Source: an uncultured Lachnospiraceae bacterium (GTDB lineage: Bacteria; Bacillota; Clostridia; Lachnospirales; Lachnospiraceae). Taken from it: a stretch of 15,717 bases of DNA. Where the stretch lies: positions 1 through 15,717 of the forward strand of contig CADBTO010000343.1 in NCBI GenBank assembly GCA_902797565.1. Direction: 5' to 3'. How positions within the stretch are numbered: position 1 is the stretch's first letter; the number at the start of each line of letters is the position of its first letter. This document shows, one piece after another, positions 1,830-13,630 of this stretch. Below the pieces are notes generated by a model. That model was not told the DNA's origin and made no database searches. It saw only the letters and a program-made list of their open reading frames with translations. Position numbers and translations under genes: made by a program.

Positions 1830-3410
1830 CTATCTGGTTCTTTCTTCCGCTTCCCACCCGACCAGTTTTCGGGACTTCGAATCGAATGCCACACCGATCT
1901 TGTATAGCGTTCGCTGATCTGCCGCGAATGGCAGTGTATAATCTTTCGAATTGATTTGCTCTAATGCTGCTCTGGCAGTGTCATCCCGTTTGAATTCAAA
2001 CAGGTAGATATAATTCCGGGTTTCGACTTTGCAGTCAATGCGTCCGGAGTATGTGTGTACTTCGCAACTGGCAAACTGGCCGAGCAGTGTAAAGACAAGG
2101 TAGATCACAGCCTGGAAATAGTGCTCGAAGGGGTCTGCCTGCAGTGTATATGTGATGTTTGCGAACAGCGAGGAGAGGTCGTCCCGGATGGCGTCCAGAT
2201 TTCCCTGTTCGACATATCGGCGCAGTGTGAAGATATCGTTTCCGGAGCCGGCACCACAGTTTGATACATATTCCGGCATCAGGTTTTCCAGAAATCCATA
2301 CTTTACCTCTTCGTTTGGAAAAGATAAGGTATATTCCCGGCCGATCTTGTCAAAATCTGTAATCGTAAGATATCCTGTCTGGTACAGGAGAGGGATGGGA
2401 TCGGTTCCCTCGCCGGTATAGTCTTTCAGCATTCCATCACTGGCATAGAGGGTGTGGTCTGTAAGTTTTCGGACATCGAAGCCGGTATGGGCCAGTTTTT
2501 TCACGAGGAATGTGGGAGTTCCTGTTTCAAACCAGTAGGAAGCGAATTCACGGTCAGAAAGCGCATTCAAAAGGCTGTATGGATTATACACAGAGCATGC
2601 ATCTGGATGGAAACGGTAGCCATCGTACCTGCGTTTTAATGCAGAGATACACGCATCCTGCGTCAAATCCAGTTCCCAGGCAAGATCCATCAGTTCCTGG
2701 TCAAAATAATCCGTGAGTTCTGAGTCTGTGATTCCACAGAGGGCAGCATATTGTTTGGATAGAGAAATATCCTTGAGCTGGTTCAGGTCGCTGAAAATAC
2801 TGACCTTGTGGAATTTTGACACACCAGTGATGAAGAGAAACTGGATGGACTCATCAGCGTTCTTCAGCCTGCTGAAAAAACCTTTGAACACATCTTTGAT
2901 ATGTGTCTGCCGTGCTGGCTGGTCGATCGTGTCCAGCAGTGGTTTGTCGTATTCGTCAATCAGAACCACGCATCTTCGGTCTGTTTGACTGGCTGCCAAT
3001 TCTAAAACCTTTTGGAAACGGTCTCCCAAAGTACGAGTATGATACTCGTTGCCGTATAGCGCTTCCCAGTCTTCCAGCATCTCCTCCAGAACCGTTTCGA
3101 TCGGTGTTTCCAGATAATTATTTCCATTGAAGTCGAAGTAAAAGACTGGATGGGGCTGCCATGCATCCGGCTGCCCGTCTTCCAGTGTTTCGATTGCAAG
3201 CCCCTGGAACAGCTTGCGTTTCCCTTCCCAATAAGCTTTCAAGGTGGATAAAAGGAGGCTCTTTCCAAATCTACGGGGTCGGCTCAGGAAGTAAGGGATA
3301 TTGTTGTGTGCCAGCTGGTAGACATATTCTGTTTTATCCACATACAGGAAATGGTCATCCCGGATTTTTTCAAATCCCTGAATGCCGATCGGCAGTTTTC
3401 TTTGGTTCAT
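1830..3410 (-). CDS. AAA-ATPase-like / PD-(D/E)XK nuclease-like protein (DUF1703 type)
   Basis: The 526-residue protein has the two-domain layout of the 'AAA-ATPase_like plus PD-(D/E)XK_9 (DUF1703)' family. It opens with LPIGIQGFEKIR and FLYVDKT, then a P-loop-like RPRRFGKS (44-51) and a Walker-B-like IDEYDKP (151-157). Near the C-terminus, GRID, a hydrophobic strand, EFK and a downstream A-x3-EQI helix form the nuclease-like core. The family is common and often multicopy in gut Clostridia and Bacteroides; its role is not established and it has been suspected of mobility. I chose the ATG at 3410 because the family begins there and it lies 13 bases after the argH stop. The ribosome binding site is weak (GGA only), suggesting translational coupling to argH. 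The longer in-frame start overlaps argH and is unlikely. All key motifs look intact. Confidence 0.88.
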   Translation of the reverse strand: MNQRKLPIGIQGFEKIRDDHFLYVDKTEYVYQLAHNNIPYFLSRPRRFGKSLLLSTLKAYWEGKRKLFQGLAIETLEDGQPDAWQPHPVFYFDFNGNNYLETPIETVLEEMLEDWEALYGNEYHTRTLGDRFQKVLELAASQTDRRCVVLIDEYDKPLLDTIDQPARQTHIKDVFKGFFSRLKNADESIQFLFITGVSKFHKVSIFSDLNQLKDISLSKQYAALCGITDSELTDYFDQELMDLAWELDLTQDACISALKRRYDGYRFHPDACSVYNPYSLLNALSDREFASYWFETGTPTFLVKKLAHTGFDVRKLTDHTLYASDGMLKDYTGEGTDPIPLLYQTGYLTITDFDKIGREYTLSFPNEEVKYGFLENLMPEYVSNCGAGSGNDIFTLRRYVEQGNLDAIRDDLSSLFANITYTLQADPFEHYFQAVIYLVFTLLGQFASCEVHTYSGRIDCKVETRNYIYLFEFKRDDTARAALEQINSKDYTLPFAADQRTLYKIGVAFDSKSRKLVGWEAEERTR

Positions 3411-3423
3411 TGCATTGTCCGTG

Positions 3424-4800
3424 TCAGCTTTCCAGATATTTTTTTGCACCGGCGATTTCTGTTTCCAGTGCCGCCGCGCCGGGGCCGCCATAGGTGTTGC
3501 GTTTGTTGACGCAGGTTTCGAGGGAGATGGCGTCGTAGACGTCTGCCTCGATGACGGGGGAGAATGCCTTCAGTTCCTCAAGTGTGAGGTCATCAATGGC
3601 ACAATCCTTCTCATCGCAGGATACGACGACGCGGCCGACGATACCGTGGGCATCGCGGAAGGGGATGCCTTTGCCGACCAGGTAGTCTGCAAGGTCTGTG
3701 GCGTTCGTAAAGCCACCGGTGGCGGATGCCTTCATCACATCTTTCCGGAATGTGGTGGTTTCCAGCATATCAGAAAACAGTTCAATGCAGGCAAGTGCGG
3801 TGTCCATTGCGTCGAAAGCAAGTTCTTTGTCTTCCTGCATATCTTTGTTGTATGCAAGGGGAAGCCCTTTCATCGTCGTCAGCAGGGAGATGAGGGCGCC
3901 ATAGACCCGGCCGGTCTTACCGCGGACGAGCTCCGCGATATCCGGATTTTTCTTCTGGGGCATGATGGAGCTGCCTGTGCTGTATGCATCGTCAATCTCA
4001 ACAAAGCGGTATTCGTTGGAGTTCCAAAGGATGACCTCTTCCGAGAAACGGGACAGGTGCATCATCAGGATGGACAGGGCGGACAGGTATTCCAGCAGGT
4101 AATCCCGATCCGAAACGCCGTCCATGGCATTTTCCATTGGTGCATAGAACCCCAGTTCTTTTGCCGTGAAATCCCGATCCAGGGGATAGGTGGTTCCGGC
4201 GAGTGCACCGCTGCCCAGCGGGCAGTAGTTCATGCGTTCGAAGATGTCTGAGAGCCTGCCCCGGTCGCGGCGGAACATCTCAAAATAAGCCCCCAGATAA
4301 AAGCCCAGGGTCACAGGCTGTGCTTTCTGCAGGTGTGTGAAGCCAGGCATGTAGGTCTGCCTGTGTTCATCCATCAGATGGCAGAGGACGGACAGGAGCT
4401 GTTTCAAAGCAGCATCCGTTTCTTTCACTTTCTTCCGCGTATAGAGCCGCATATCCAGTGCAACCTGGTCGTTCCGGCTCCTGCCGGTGTGGAGTTTCTT
4501 GCCGGCGTCGCCGACGCGCTGTGTCAGGACAGCTTCTACGAAGCTATGGATGTCTTCATAGCTGCTGCTGATTTCCAGCGTCCCTTCTTCGACGTCTTTT
4601 CGGATCGAAGAAAGTCCGTCTAAAATTGCAGAGGCGTCTTCTTTGGACAGGATGCCCTGCTTTTCGAGCATCTTTGTGTGTGCCATAGAGCCTGCGACAT
4701 CTTCATAGAAGAGACGCTGGTCAAAGAGGATGGATGCGTTGAATGCGAAAACCTTCTGGTCGGTTTCTTTTGTAAAGCGGCCGCCCCAAAGCTGTGCCAT
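3424..4800 (-). CDS. argH: Argininosuccinate lyase
   Basis: This cytoplasmic enzyme cleaves argininosuccinate to arginine and fumarate, the last step of arginine synthesis. The 458-residue length is normal. Signatures are LWGGRF near the N-terminus, HTGRSRND (104-111), FTHLQKAQP with His156, and the fumarase/lyase signature GSSIMPQKKNP (276-286). The chosen ATG (MAQLWGGRF) has AAAGGAG 8 bases upstream. A second in-frame ATG seven codons earlier, at 4821, has its own AAAGGAG with 7-base spacing, so two nested starts are possible; family alignments favour the shorter. argG is not in the window. The gene sits between queH (upstream) and the DUF1703-type gene. Its leader contains two tandem structured repeats that include ribosome-binding-site sequence, hinting at control at RNA level. 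Confidence 0.97.
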   Translation of the reverse strand: MAQLWGGRFTKETDQKVFAFNASILFDQRLFYEDVAGSMAHTKMLEKQGILSKEDASAILDGLSSIRKDVEEGTLEISSSYEDIHSFVEAVLTQRVGDAGKKLHTGRSRNDQVALDMRLYTRKKVKETDAALKQLLSVLCHLMDEHRQTYMPGFTHLQKAQPVTLGFYLGAYFEMFRRDRGRLSDIFERMNYCPLGSGALAGTTYPLDRDFTAKELGFYAPMENAMDGVSDRDYLLEYLSALSILMMHLSRFSEEVILWNSNEYRFVEIDDAYSTGSSIMPQKKNPDIAELVRGKTGRVYGALISLLTTMKGLPLAYNKDMQEDKELAFDAMDTALACIELFSDMLETTTFRKDVMKASATGGFTNATDLADYLVGKGIPFRDAHGIVGRVVVSCDEKDCAIDDLTLEELKAFSPVIEADVYDAISLETCVNKRNTYGGPGAAALETEIAGAKKYLES

Positions 4801-6598: not shown

Positions 6599-6688
6599 CC
6601 ACTCCCCTCCTGACTCCAATGGAATTGAAATCCTGAAACGAGGAATGGCGGCGAAGTAACTGGGGGGTATACTTACCAAAAAGGAAAA

Positions 6689-6760
6689 GCTCCGAATCCG
6701 ACTTGAACGGACGACCTACGCATTACGAGTGCGTCGCTCTACCAACTGAGCTATCGGAGC
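6689..6760 (-). tRNA. tRNA-Thr (anticodon CGT)
   Basis: The reverse complement folds into a full 72-base cloverleaf: acceptor GCTCCGA/TCGGAGC, D stem GCTC/GAGC around AGTTGGTA, anticodon stem ACGCA/TGCGT with loop CTCGTAA (anticodon CGT, reading ACG), a 5-base variable loop, and T stem GTCCG/CGGAT with loop TTCAAGT. The discriminator is U and the CCA end is not encoded. A consensus -10 lies a few bases upstream, and no hairpin terminator follows before the DUF5688 gene. Confidence 0.97.
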
Positions 6761-9096: not shown

Positions 9097-10206
9097 TTAT
9101 TTCTGTATCACATCATACTGCCGCTTTTTCAGAAGGCGGATTGCCTCTTCCATCGAAGGTTCGTCATACATTTCGACTTGCAGGACGCCCTGCTCGAATT
9201 CGCGGTTGTGCAGGATGCCGATATTTTTGATGGACAGCGCATTGGCTGCCAGAATCGATGCAATGGTCGCGATTTGTCCGGCTTCATCGGCAAGGTTTAC
9301 ATAAAACTCGAATGCCGCAGGCAGGACGCCGCCCTTTTTGCGCAGGGGCAGGGAATCGCGGAAGTTCTTTGCTTTGCCAAAGAGGCCGAGCAGTTCGTCT
9401 GCATCTGCCGCCTCCACACCGGCGCGGAAACGCGCCAGCTCTTCCTGATAGGTATCCAGAAGCTGCAGGATGGCCTCGCGGTTGGACAGGCAGATATGCT
9501 GCCACATTTGCGGCGAGGAGGAAGAGATGCGTGTGATGTCCCGAAAACCGCCGGCTGCGATCGTCTTCATCACCTCATCCTCGGAGTCCTGGTCGCAGAC
9601 CAGGTTTACGAGCGATGCGGAAATGATATGGGGGACATGGGAGATGGCGGCAGTCGCCAGGTCGTGCTTCTCCGGTTCCATCGTCAGTGTGATTGCGCCC
9701 AAAGAAGAGATGAACGCGGCAAAATCCGGCAGGAGCTCCCGTGCCTGTGGGGTTTCTGCAGTCAGGATATAATAAGCATTTTCCAGATAGGAAATATTGG
9801 AGTTTGCAAAGCCGATTTTTTCTGATCCGGTCATCGGGTGGCCGCCGATGAACTGGCCATCCAGTCCCAGATCCCGTATGACGGCGTGGATATCGCCTTT
9901 GACGCTGCCGACATCGGTCAGCAGCGTATCTTTTTGGATATACGGGTGTAATTTCCGGAGATAATCCGTATTTATCCCGACCGGCCCGCAGAGGAAGAGG
10001 ATGTCTGCCGCTGCAAGTTCCTGAGGGGAGAGGAAGGACTGGTTCTCGATGACCCCGGCCTCATAAGCTTCCAGGATCGTTTCTTCGTGTCCTGCTGTCC
10101 CAAGTATCTGTACTTCCGGGTGGAAGTGCTTGATTGCCCTGGCAATCGAGCCGCCGATCAGGCCAAGTCCCACCATAGAGATCCTGTTTGTGTGAAATGT
10201 CATCAT
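9097..10206 (-). CDS. tyrA: Prephenate dehydrogenase with C-terminal ACT domain
   Basis: TyrA oxidatively decarboxylates prephenate to 4-hydroxyphenylpyruvate with NAD, the tyrosine branch of aromatic amino-acid synthesis. The 369-residue protein has the dinucleotide loop GLGLIGGS (13-20), DVGSVKG (98-104) and catalytic GGHPMTGSEK with H123. After the helical dehydrogenase domain, residues about 298-367 form an ACT domain (VNLADEAGQIATIASILA, IKNIGIL), which in this family binds tyrosine for feedback inhibition. The gene begins ATGATG. AGGAG is only 3 bases from the first ATG and 6 from the second (10203), so initiation may be at the second. It follows aroF across a triplicated junction and ends at a strong terminator. 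Confidence 0.95.
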   Translation of the reverse strand: MMTFHTNRISMVGLGLIGGSIARAIKHFHPEVQILGTAGHEETILEAYEAGVIENQSFLSPQELAAADILFLCGPVGINTDYLRKLHPYIQKDTLLTDVGSVKGDIHAVIRDLGLDGQFIGGHPMTGSEKIGFANSNISYLENAYYILTAETPQARELLPDFAAFISSLGAITLTMEPEKHDLATAAISHVPHIISASLVNLVCDQDSEDEVMKTIAAGGFRDITRISSSSPQMWQHICLSNREAILQLLDTYQEELARFRAGVEAADADELLGLFGKAKNFRDSLPLRKKGGVLPAAFEFYVNLADEAGQIATIASILAANALSIKNIGILHNREFEQGVLQVEMYDEPSMEEAIRLLKKRQYDVIQK

Positions 10207-10216
10207 ATTCTCCTGT

Positions 10217-10246
10217 TTAGATCCTGATTGTGCGAAAAGTCATCAT
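10217..10246 (-). CDS. Mini-ORF 2 (MMTFRTIRI), tyrA-proximal
   Basis: ATGATGACTTTTCGC and four further codons end at TAA and encode nine residues, MMTFRTIRI. An AGGAAAA site lies before it, as in tyrA but weaker. The peptide is identical to mini-ORF 1 despite a synonymous CGC/CGT difference and resembles the tyrA start MMTFHTNRI. The stop lies 10 bases before the tyrA ATG. It may be translated through termination-reinitiation between aroF and tyrA, or be a passive by-product of the repeat. Confidence 0.35.
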   Translation of the reverse strand: MMTFRTIRI

Positions 10247-10257
10247 AATTTTCCTGT

Positions 10258-10287
10258 TCAGATCCTGATTGTACGAAAAGTCATCAT
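10258..10287 (-). CDS. Mini-ORF 1 (MMTFRTIRI), overlapping the aroF stop
   Basis: The ATG overlaps the aroF TGA in an ATGA arrangement (10284-10287), and nine codons run to a TGA at 10258-10260. The encoded peptide MMTFRTIRI matches mini-ORF 2. The ATGA overlap probably shows how aroF and tyrA were joined before the duplication. Ribosomes leaving aroF could restart here. Whether the peptide is made or matters is not known. Confidence 0.35.
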   Translation of the reverse strand: MMTFRTIRI

Positions 10288-11297
10288 ATTTTCCTGTTTA
10301 CAAGCTCCAGATAAGGACCGACTTCCTGGACACATTCCTCAAACTGGGGCAGGGTCAGTGACTGCGGTCCATCGGAGAGTGCTGCTTCCGGGTTGTTGTG
10401 GACCTCGATCATCACGCCGTCCGCATCGATGGCAGCGGCTGCTTTGGTCAGAGGCTTGATGAAGGAACGGACGCCAGTCGCATGGGAAGGATCCACGATG
10501 ACCGGAAGATGGGTCTTTTCCTTGAGTACCAGGACAGCGGAGATGTCCAGGGTGTTGCGGGTCGCTGTTTCATAGGTCCGGATGCCGCGTTCGCAGAGGC
10601 AAACTTTTTCGTTGCCGTTTGCACAGATGTATTCCGCGGCATTGAGCCATTCGTCGATCGTCGCCGCCAGGCCGCGTTTGAGCATAACGGGCAGGCCGCA
10701 TTTTCCGACTTCCTTTAATAATTCGAAATTCTGCATATTTCGGGCGCCGATCTGCAGCATATCCACGTACTTTACGGCAGCTTCCAGGGCATGGCGGCTG
10801 GTGACTTCGCAGATGGTCGGGATGTCAAACGCTGCGCCCGCTTCTTTCATAATGATCAGCCCTTCTTCTTCGAGGCCCTGGAAGGAGTACGGGGAGGTAC
10901 GGGGCTTGTATGCGCCGCCCCGGAGCAGTGTGGCACCGGCTTTTTTGACAGATTCTGCTATGGTGAAAAGCTGGTCGTGCGATTCGATCGCGCAGGGGCC
11001 GGCCATAATGGTGAAGCTGCCGGGCCCGATCCAGCTGTTTCCAACAGAAAAGCCGGAGTCTTTCGGATGGAATTTTCGGTTTGCCAGCTTGTAGGATTCT
11101 GTGACCGGAATCACTTTTTCTACGACCGGGTTTGCTTTCAGCTGGTCAATGTCCAGGACGGTTTTGTCGCCAATAATGCCAACGACCGTCGTTTCCGCGC
11201 CCCGGGAGATGTTGGTAGAAAGTCCTTTGGACTCGATCCGTTTGGAGAGTTTTTCAATCTCCTCTGCCGGGGTTTGTGGTTTCAGTACTAAAATCAT
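10284..11297 (-). CDS. aroF: 3-deoxy-7-phosphoheptulonate synthase (DAHP synthase, type I-beta)
   Basis: The enzyme condenses phosphoenolpyruvate and erythrose-4-phosphate, the first shikimate-pathway step. The 337-residue protein has an N-terminal ferredoxin-like regulatory domain (about 1-70) and a TIM barrel. Motifs are GPCAIES (100-106), RGGAYKPRTSPYSFQG (126-141), QIGARNMQN (182-190), KRG (207-209), CERGIRT (235-241) and DPSHATG (269-275). Metal ligands C102, H272, E298 and D309 fall at the positions I recall for the Thermotoga maritima enzyme, whose similar N-terminal domain mediates tyrosine/phenylalanine inhibition. The ATG at 11297 gives the family start MILVLKP and has GAGGA upstream; the 14-residue longer version is not supported. 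A strong promoter lies about 90 bases upstream. The stop overlaps mini-ORF 1 and the operon continues into tyrA. Confidence 0.96.
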   Translation of the reverse strand: MILVLKPQTPAEEIEKLSKRIESKGLSTNISRGAETTVVGIIGDKTVLDIDQLKANPVVEKVIPVTESYKLANRKFHPKDSGFSVGNSWIGPGSFTIMAGPCAIESHDQLFTIAESVKKAGATLLRGGAYKPRTSPYSFQGLEEEGLIIMKEAGAAFDIPTICEVTSRHALEAAVKYVDMLQIGARNMQNFELLKEVGKCGLPVMLKRGLAATIDEWLNAAEYICANGNEKVCLCERGIRTYETATRNTLDISAVLVLKEKTHLPVIVDPSHATGVRSFIKPLTKAAAAIDADGVMIEVHNNPEAALSDGPQSLTLPQFEECVQEVGPYLELVNRKI

Positions 11298-11469: not shown

Positions 11470-11536
11470 TGCTAGAAGGCTGGTGAGCCAGTCTGTTATC
11501 CGAATGAGAATGAGAAACAGGTTAGGGGGTTTCGTA

Positions 11537-13630
11537 ATGAAGGTTTATACGACTGACAAAATTCGTAACGTGGTGGTCCTGGGACATGCCGGGAGCGGGA
11601 AGACATCGCTGGTCGAAGCGATGGCGTACCTTGCCGGGATGACGAAGCGTCCGGGTAATACGGCAGACGGGAACACGATCAGCGATTATGAGAGTCAGGA
11701 AAAGAAGCGGAAGATGTCGATCCGCACATCCCTGATCCCTGTGGAGTGGGAAGGAGACAAGCTGAACTTCCTGGATACACCGGGATCTCTGGATTTCACC
11801 GGAGAGGTCGCAGAGGCGCTTTCTGCGGCAGACTCTGCCATTATCGTGGTTTCCGGGAAAAACGGCGTGGAGAGCGGCACAAAGCGCGCATGGGATGAGT
11901 GCGAGAAGTACCATCTGCCCAGGATGTTCTTTGTGACCGATATGGATATTGATGATGCAAGCTACCGCGAGGTGGTGGAAGAGCTTCAGAAGCTCTATGG
12001 CAAGAAGATTGCGCCGTTCCATCTTCCGATCCGGGAGAACGGGCAGTTTGTGGGTTATGTCAATGTCATCCAGCAGCGGGCAAAGCGCTGGAAAGATGAT
12101 GGTACTGTCGAAAAATGCGATATTCCGGATTATTCACGGGAGAACCTGGAAAGCTATCGGGAGATCCTGATGGAGTCTGTGGCAGAAACCAGCGAAGAAT
12201 TTATGGATCGTTATTTTGGCGGCGAGGAATTTTCTGATGATGAGATCCGTCAGGCAATGCGTGCAAATATTTCCGAGGGCGGGATTGTACCAGTGCTGAT
12301 GGGTTCTAATACATTGTGCCGGGGGATGTACACCCTGATGGTGGATGTCGCGAAATATCTGCCCAGCCCGGAGAAACGGGAGTGTACCGGGATCAATGCG
12401 AAGTCAAACGACGTCTTTGCAGCAAACTTCGACTTTTCGAAACCGAAGAGCGCCTATGTGTTCAAGACGATTGTGGATCCGTTTGTCGGCAAGTATTCAT
12501 TGATTAAGGTCAATTCCGGGGTCATCAAGTCAGACGACACGCTTTTCAATTATCATCGGGACGCAGAGGAACGCGTGGGCAAGCTTTATGTGCTTTGCGG
12601 CTCGAAGGCTGAAGAGGTTTCTGAGCTGCATGCCGGGGATATCGGGGCGCTCTCGAAACTCCAGAAGACCCAGACGACGGATTCCCTGTCCACAAAGGCG
12701 CATCCGGTGGCATATCTGCGTGCGACCCTGCCGACGCCGTATACCTATCTGCGTTATACAGTGCCGAACAAGTCTGATGTGGACAAGGCTTCGACCGCGA
12801 TCAGCAAGATCATGCAGGAAGATCTGACTGTCCAGGTCAAAAACGACAGTGAGAACCACCAGACCCTGCTTTACGGTGTATCTGAACAGCAGCTGGAGAT
12901 CATCAAAGACCAGCTTCAGGAGAAATACAAGGTGGAGATCAACCTTGGAAAGCCCAGGATTGCGTACAAGGAAACGATCCTTGGCAAGAGCGACGTGGAA
13001 TACAAGTACAAGAAACAGACCGGCGGGCATGGGCAGTACGGGCATGTGAAGATGACGTTTGAACCGTCCGGGAATCTGGATGAGGGCTATGAGTTCTCGC
13101 AGACCGTGGTCGGCGGGGCGGTGCCGAAGAATTACTTCCCGGCGGTGGAAAAGGGTGTCATGGAGGCCGTGTCGGCAGGGCCGCTGGCGGCATATCCGGT
13201 GGTGGGCCTCAAGGCAAACCTGTACGACGGAAGTTATCATCCGGTCGATTCTTCGGAGAACGCGTTCAAGAAAGCAGCTTCGATGTGCCTGAAGAAAGGG
13301 ATGATGGAAGCGAAGCCGGTCCTGCTTGAGCCGATCGCGCTGCTGAAGGTGTATGTGCCGGATGCGAAGACCGGGGATGTCATGGGCGATCTGAACAAGC
13401 GGCGTGCGCGCGTCAATGGCATGAACATCGGGGAAGATGGCCGGCAGGAGGTTGTGGCGGAGATCCCGTATGCGGAGCTTTATGGCTATGGGACGCAGCT
13501 TCGGTCGATGACCGGGGGCAGCGGGGACTTCTCCTATGAGTTCCTCAAGTACCAGCAGACACCGCACGAAATCCAGGAAGCGGAGATCGAGCGGAGGGCT
13601 GCGATCGTGAAGGAAGGCGAAGAGGACTAA
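11537..13630 (+). CDS. EF-G-like translation factor (EF-G paralogue) with altered GTPase motifs
   Basis: The 697-residue protein has the five-domain plan of EF-G: G domain (about 1-275), beta-barrel domain II (about 300-390), III (about 400-475), IV with the tip YHPVDSSENAFKKA, and V ending in MTGGSGDFSYEF. It is not the main EF-G. G1 GHAGSGKT (16-23) is intact. Switch I reads RKMSI where EF-G has RGITI; G3 reads DTPGSLDF (80-87) with Ser84 in place of the catalytic His of DTPGH; and G4 reads TDMD (134-137) in place of NKMD. Paralogues of this group are widespread in Clostridia and poorly understood. The gene stands alone rather than beside ribosomal protein genes. The start at 11537 has AGGGGG 7 bases upstream; the 18-codon-longer start lacks support. 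Confidence 0.9.
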   Translation: MKVYTTDKIRNVVVLGHAGSGKTSLVEAMAYLAGMTKRPGNTADGNTISDYESQEKKRKMSIRTSLIPVEWEGDKLNFLDTPGSLDFTGEVAEALSAADSAIIVVSGKNGVESGTKRAWDECEKYHLPRMFFVTDMDIDDASYREVVEELQKLYGKKIAPFHLPIRENGQFVGYVNVIQQRAKRWKDDGTVEKCDIPDYSRENLESYREILMESVAETSEEFMDRYFGGEEFSDDEIRQAMRANISEGGIVPVLMGSNTLCRGMYTLMVDVAKYLPSPEKRECTGINAKSNDVFAANFDFSKPKSAYVFKTIVDPFVGKYSLIKVNSGVIKSDDTLFNYHRDAEERVGKLYVLCGSKAEEVSELHAGDIGALSKLQKTQTTDSLSTKAHPVAYLRATLPTPYTYLRYTVPNKSDVDKASTAISKIMQEDLTVQVKNDSENHQTLLYGVSEQQLEIIKDQLQEKYKVEINLGKPRIAYKETILGKSDVEYKYKKQTGGHGQYGHVKMTFEPSGNLDEGYEFSQTVVGGAVPKNYFPAVEKGVMEAVSAGPLAAYPVVGLKANLYDGSYHPVDSSENAFKKAASMCLKKGMMEAKPVLLEPIALLKVYVPDAKTGDVMGDLNKRRARVNGMNIGEDGRQEVVAEIPYAELYGYGTQLRSMTGGSGDFSYEFLKYQQTPHEIQEAEIERRAAIVKEGEED

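Follow-up and report, generated by a model that had tools for sequence, protein, structure and literature searches.

The aroF-tyrA junction

The window, that is the whole stretch of 15,717 nucleotides analysed from a draft Lachnospiraceae genome, carries on its minus strand the genes aroF and tyrA, and between them two mini-ORFs encoding an identical nine residue peptide (Table 1). The start of aroF was set at MILVLK, within a listed ORF that extends to 11339, and its product matches NCBIfam NF006421 (468.4 bits, cut-off 335) and lies above cut-off for Pfam PF00793 and PF18152. The tyrA product is likewise above cut-off for PF02153 and PF20463, and its best NCBIfam model is a prephenate dehydrogenase, matched below that model's own cut-off (333.6 vs 414). 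The divergent neighbour of aroF encodes an elongation factor G-like protein (11483-13630, plus strand), and at 1830-3491 on the minus strand there is an ORF with AAA-ATPase_like (PF09820) and PDDEXK_9 (PF08011) domains.

Table 1. Features of the aroF-tyrA junction, in order of transcription (positions in the window)
Feature	Position	Strand	Details
aroF, 3-deoxy-7-phosphoheptulonate synthase	10284..11297	-	stop TGA 10286-10284
SD-like AGGAAAA of mini-ORF 1	10289..10295	-	within final aroF codons; duplex -4.3 kcal/mol
mini-ORF 1, MMTFRTIRI	10258..10287	-	stop TGA; ATGA overlap with aroF stop
SD-like AGGAAAA of mini-ORF 2	10249..10255	-	duplex -4.3 kcal/mol
mini-ORF 2, MMTFRTIRI	10217..10246	-	stop TAA; 11 nt past mini-ORF 1 stop
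SD-like AGGAGAA of tyrA	10208..10214	-	duplex -7.4 kcal/mol
tyrA, prephenate dehydrogenase	9097..10206	-	start 10 nt past mini-ORF 2 stop
whole tandem array	10179..10300	-	3 copies, spacing 41 and 40

The preliminary description had reported three direct repeats of 40-41 bp over this junction, and they are found again both by TRF (3.0 copies, period 40, score 193) and by a repeat search (three 41-nt copies at spacings of 40 and 41). Each repeat covers the aroF stop, an SD, an ATGATG start and the first tyrA codons, and the mRNA reads, as had been described, aroF, MMTFRTIRI*, MMTFRTIRI* and tyrA, with the ATGA overlap at the first step. Stop-to-start distances are -4 nt between aroF and mini-ORF 1, +11 nt between the two mini-ORFs and +10 nt between mini-ORF 2 and tyrA, so that the 10-base gaps first given for both later steps hold only for the one before tyrA. 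The synonymous base (CGT/CGC) and the inserted base (one extra T before the second ATG) that were said to distinguish the two mini-ORF units are indeed present; their stop codons, TGA and TAA, also differ. The third repeat copy is tyrA itself, which begins MMTFHTNRI, two residues off the mini-ORF peptide, and which starts 10 nt past the mini-ORF 2 TAA (mRNA reading MMTFHTNRISMVGLG). In the 28-base stretch running from ATG to ATCT there is one difference between mini-ORFs 1 and 2, three between mini-ORF 2 and tyrA, and four between mini-ORF 1 and tyrA.

The array is more than chance: a self-repeat scan gives 33 at the aroF-tyrA junction against at most 10 in 34 other tyrA 5' regions adjacent to aroF, and in 64 other tyrA 5' regions lacking an adjacent aroF it gives none at the printing cut-off of 16. 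With a draft of 428 contigs, 81% complete, a misassembly could produce such a repeat, but we regard this as extremely improbable, as the three copies differ among themselves and about 120 bp lies, as is generally known, within ordinary short reads. A TyrA protein (P0001) with an identical N-terminus and two residue differences, from a 2254-base contig, also speaks against an artefact, though its source is blank and it does not itself show the repeats.

The junction in related genomes

Comparison of the junction with related genomes, proposed when the repeat was first described, has now been made for 98 tyrA 5' regions (29, 2, 27 and 40 loci, own genome excluded), which after removal of three second loci of already counted genomes represent 95 genomes. 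Eleven of these belong to the genus, all others but two to the rest of the family, and those two to the order only. The regions are part of the search yield, one search having matched 284 of 299 genomes, own included. A comparable direct repeat in the tyrA 5' region was found in none of the 95. Close spacing of the two genes is by contrast common: aroF is directly upstream of tyrA in 32 of the genomes, at distances of -13 to +98 nt, and in these adjacent pairs the aroF stop and tyrA start overlap in 17 cases and the distance falls between -13 and +12 nt in 24. Among the 11 genus members examined the genes adjoin in two, G001 and G006, each with a single ATGA junction and an SD within the last aroF codons. 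Used as a nucleotide query against all 13 genus genomes, the junction had matches in G000, G001 and G006 only, and those in G001 and G006 were confined to gene sequence. Genome contigs were also scanned for DNA of the same species: the junction pattern gave no match and a protein scan confirmed no relative, in collections from which records very near the window may be absent. The single-copy relatives together with the frequent close aroF-tyrA spacing indicate, by sequence comparison, that the triplication is the derived state. At the aligned position relatives have FRN, the mini-ORFs FRT and tyrA FHT, a faint hint that Arg5 may be the older residue.

Tandem arrays in the host genome

The unit is confined to the junction. 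A pattern allowing up to three mismatches finds only its three copies in the draft genome, and other own-genome BLAST matches to it, at E up to 10, extend over only 19 and 14 bases (E 2.28). Short tandem arrays of other sequence were counted by TRF (period at least 24, score at least 80) in an own sample of 80 stretches plus the window and in four relatives, G001, G011 and G012 of the genus and G085 of the family; ten G006 contigs were left out, being essentially N (G+C 0.081). There are 36 arrays in 435,616 own bases and 19 in 469,659 bases of the relatives, and outside ORFs 11, including the aroF-tyrA array, and two. When the aroF-tyrA array is excluded the figures become 35 vs 19 for all arrays (rate ratio 2.0, p 0.020) and 10 vs 2 outside ORFs (rate ratio 5.4, p 0.019), the latter p value changing to 0.033 if L218 132-190, which looks coding when read, is removed (nine arrays), and to 0.057 if the L209 element is removed too. 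ORFs were called by a crude rule, by which alone the two outside-ORF arrays of the relatives were counted, the own ones having been read by eye as well. Short tandem arrays are thus about twice as dense in the own genome as in the four relatives. This excess is suggestive only, because sampling was uneven: the own stretches came mostly from short contigs, whereas the relatives were sampled at the beginning of contigs that were mostly long.

Several own arrays lie, like that at aroF, at gene ends and have diverged copies: at L100 4891-5027 the end of an smpB-like gene is copied (35 bp, 3.5 copies, 74% matches by TRF), and at L212 372-459 and L211 624-704 the ends of a methyltransferase-like and a glycosyltransferase-like gene, respectively, are copied, the gene names here being tentative and in part assigned by eye. 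All 10 other own arrays outside ORFs were read by eye, and in none of them are a stop, an AGGA-type SD and a start repeated as a complete set.

Downstream of the methyltransferase-like gene there is a chain of small ORFs with ATGA overlaps, made by 35-bp repeats (L212 393-487), which was considered as a second example of serial starts and stops and rejected. Its starts have no SD-like stretch before them, and the downstream gene has, by eye, an apparently better start further on (AAGGAG before MEHSMEH); for these reasons we class it among the gene-end arrays with diverged copies. The chain was not found elsewhere in the own genome.

The array at L209 repeats AAGGAG, as part of a dispersed element of about 150-160 bp that occurs at L209 1465-1805 (contig C65) and at other own-genome sites, none of them in the window. 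At least 43 matches at E <=0.01 were counted in the own genome, three of them at L209, with 40 of 64 first-look candidates scored, whereas 12 other genus genomes gave a single 19-base match. In 11 aligned copies, judged by eye, the hairpin arms vary in sequence and still look complementary, and the borders of the copies resemble GCGCACACAAAGGAGTTCT; the final border could, from its appearance, serve as SD for a gene that by eye is hisH-like. The L209 copy has a folding energy of -74.1 kcal/mol and no Rfam match.

Start sites, small ORFs and neutral expectation

Calculated anti-SD duplex energies bear out the earlier statement that the mini-ORF SDs are weaker than that of tyrA (Table 1), and of the three starts that of tyrA has the least structure as well, with a mean unpaired probability of 0.60 against 0.42 and 0.36 for the mini-ORFs. 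The coding strand has no terminator-like site between aroF and tyrA and no promoter-like site within the array, so that nothing points to an internal promoter; there is no inverted repeat in 10050-10450, and in the whole window Rfam identifies a tRNA at 6688-6760 only and no leader RNA family. A ribosome trap, one of three roles first suggested for the units, is not indicated, given that nothing terminator-like was seen there on the coding strand. Short ORFs ahead of a tyrosine pathway gene also call to mind leader peptides for amino-acid-dependent attenuation of tyrA, but this seems to us highly improbable: such a leader requires a terminator hairpin and codons specifying the amino acid under regulation, whereas each mini-ORF encodes a single Phe and has neither a Tyr nor a Trp codon, and the leader family, terminator-like site and inverted repeat are lacking as just given. 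The mini-ORFs were rejected as attenuation leaders on this basis.

In a neutral simulation starting from one unit and introducing two substitutions and one indel, both nine-codon frames survived in 22% of trials and both peptides were unchanged in 4.7%, figures from a model designed post hoc that ignores the shared history of the copies. Under neutrality the identity of the two mini-ORF peptides would then be only weakly unusual (about 0.05, post hoc). This identity, the stop-to-start distances and the weaker mini-ORF SDs would all fit a ribosome relay, in which weak-SD mini-ORFs each hand on only some of the terminating ribosomes, so that the aroF:tyrA ratio depends on how many units there are, and in which the mini-ORFs stay open under selection. 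We consider such a relay unlikely, as no array is present in the 95 relatives, the own genome has many arrays lacking any such logic, and the 4.7% probability is marginal as well as post hoc.

The difference in SD strength can also be read as the gain itself. The SD of a single-copy junction would be constrained because it also encodes the last aroF residues, and duplication could have freed the tyrA SD from the aroF frame, the change from AGGAAAA to AGGAGAA strengthening direct tyrA initiation while the first copy still ends aroF. The energies of the aroF-internal copy and the tyrA copy (-4.3 vs -7.4 kcal/mol) and the open tyrA start are in keeping with this, but in G001 and G006 strong SDs (-8.4 and -8.1 kcal/mol) lie within aroF with no duplication, and therefore the constraint is not general; the one base that differs may reflect drift, and either state could be ancestral. 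We judge this explanation improbable. A selected two-step relay would join the two ideas, tandem copying of a coupled start site having freed the tyrA SD, and two weak start-stop units in series determining, in a way that unit number could adjust, how the first aromatic-pathway enzyme is balanced against prephenate dehydrogenase; this too we judge improbable.

A probably tolerated duplication

The explanation we prefer, with a probability of about 0.7, is that two slippage duplications of a coupled junction gave rise to the array, which was tolerated, and that the mini-ORF peptides are without function of their own. The ancestral aroF-tyrA junction would have been an ATGA stop/start overlap, probably translationally coupled, and two successive local tandem duplications by replication slippage would have expanded it to three units. 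In the simplest form of this history one duplication was followed by some divergence, after which the outer unit was copied again, an order suggested by the distribution of one, three and four differences among the copies. The stop of each mini-ORF falls at the join between tyrA codons and the copied aroF tail, and from this position the duplication itself seems to have been the source of the stop. Ribosomes finishing aroF would terminate, restart at each mini-ORF and so arrive at tyrA, which keeps the strongest SD of the three and could be initiated directly too. With a stop, an SD and a start in every unit, the insertion would have been nearly silent and hence tolerated, and the peptides it created would be functionless.

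This account builds on direct observation of the junction anatomy, the single-copy relatives, the absence of other copies from the draft genome and the density of similar arrays; the confinement of the unit to one place, the many own arrays and the 22% frame survival favour an accident. Counting against an accident are the conservation of peptide, start, stop position and SD in both mini-ORFs despite divergence of the units, the low proportion of simulated trials in which both peptides were unchanged and the better SD at tyrA. The absence of any other own outside-ORF array repeating stop, AGGA-type SD and start counts against it too, as does the persistence of the array for long enough that its copies diverged, tandem copies of such size being readily lost.

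The interpretation originally offered is supported in part. Its three options included a neutral expansion, and this is the best supported of them, given the absence of a comparable repeat from 95 relatives and the many comparable own arrays. We conclude that the array is real, that the triplicated state is derived, and that it is probably an accident tolerated by a lineage with many short tandem arrays. Termination-reinitiation across the units would fit the anatomy, and the units could in principle tune tyrA. The array shows how a closely spaced operon junction can grow with no obvious damage to the operon, since what is duplicated includes a stop, an SD and a start; if ribosomes are indeed coupled across it, it would exemplify termination-reinitiation in series in nature. 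The host genome appears to gather both short tandem arrays and a dispersed structured repeat.

Comparison with known systems

The closest known architecture is the mycobacterial MIRU, a unit foreign to the genes flanking it, which likewise forms short tandem units between two genes and contains a small ORF. MIRUs are described as mobile and occupy many loci, whereas the aroF-tyrA unit, of 40-41 bp, has a single place in the draft genome. It was rejected as a dispersed MIRU-like element, having only three copies in one place of an 81% complete draft, and as a foreign one, being made of the aroF tail and the tyrA head. In a 2025 review (PMC12548453) MIRUs are said to appear mobile and to insert at start codons, where an ORF inside the unit becomes coupled to the gene (-4 nt) and the impact is minimal, whereas in our array the ATGA overlap is on the aroF side and mini-ORF 2 is at +10 nt from tyrA. 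Between senX3 and regX3, as PMC4213456 reports, there are three tandem 77-bp units in one strain and two of 77 bp with one of 53 bp in another, and these tandem MIRUs can drive independent regX3 expression; the aroF-tyrA array differs in having no promoter-like site on the coding strand. The array resembles a MIRU in layout but lacks its dispersal and foreign origin, and we place it as a local variant among junctions of the coupled type that are repeated in tandem.

The layout of coupled gene pairs, with stop and start overlapping or close and an SD present, is found at all three steps of the array (-4, +11 and +10 nt). Short upstream ORFs that deliver ribosomes are also used in engineered bicistronic designs. 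The array shares with translational coupling and short upstream ORFs, as outlined in the review (PMC12548453), an upstream stop near a downstream SD and start, and such ORFs may deliver ribosomes to downstream genes. It differs in having two identical ORFs in series, duplicated between genes that were already close. As short imperfect tandem copies at a gene junction, probably from slippage, it also resembles variable-number tandem repeats. An engineered 'tandem translation initiation' is described in PMC10821235; in a literature search that most subscription papers fell outside, we came across no naturally occurring coupled start site repeated in tandem. The aroF-tyrA array is mildly interesting as a natural serial start-stop arrangement.
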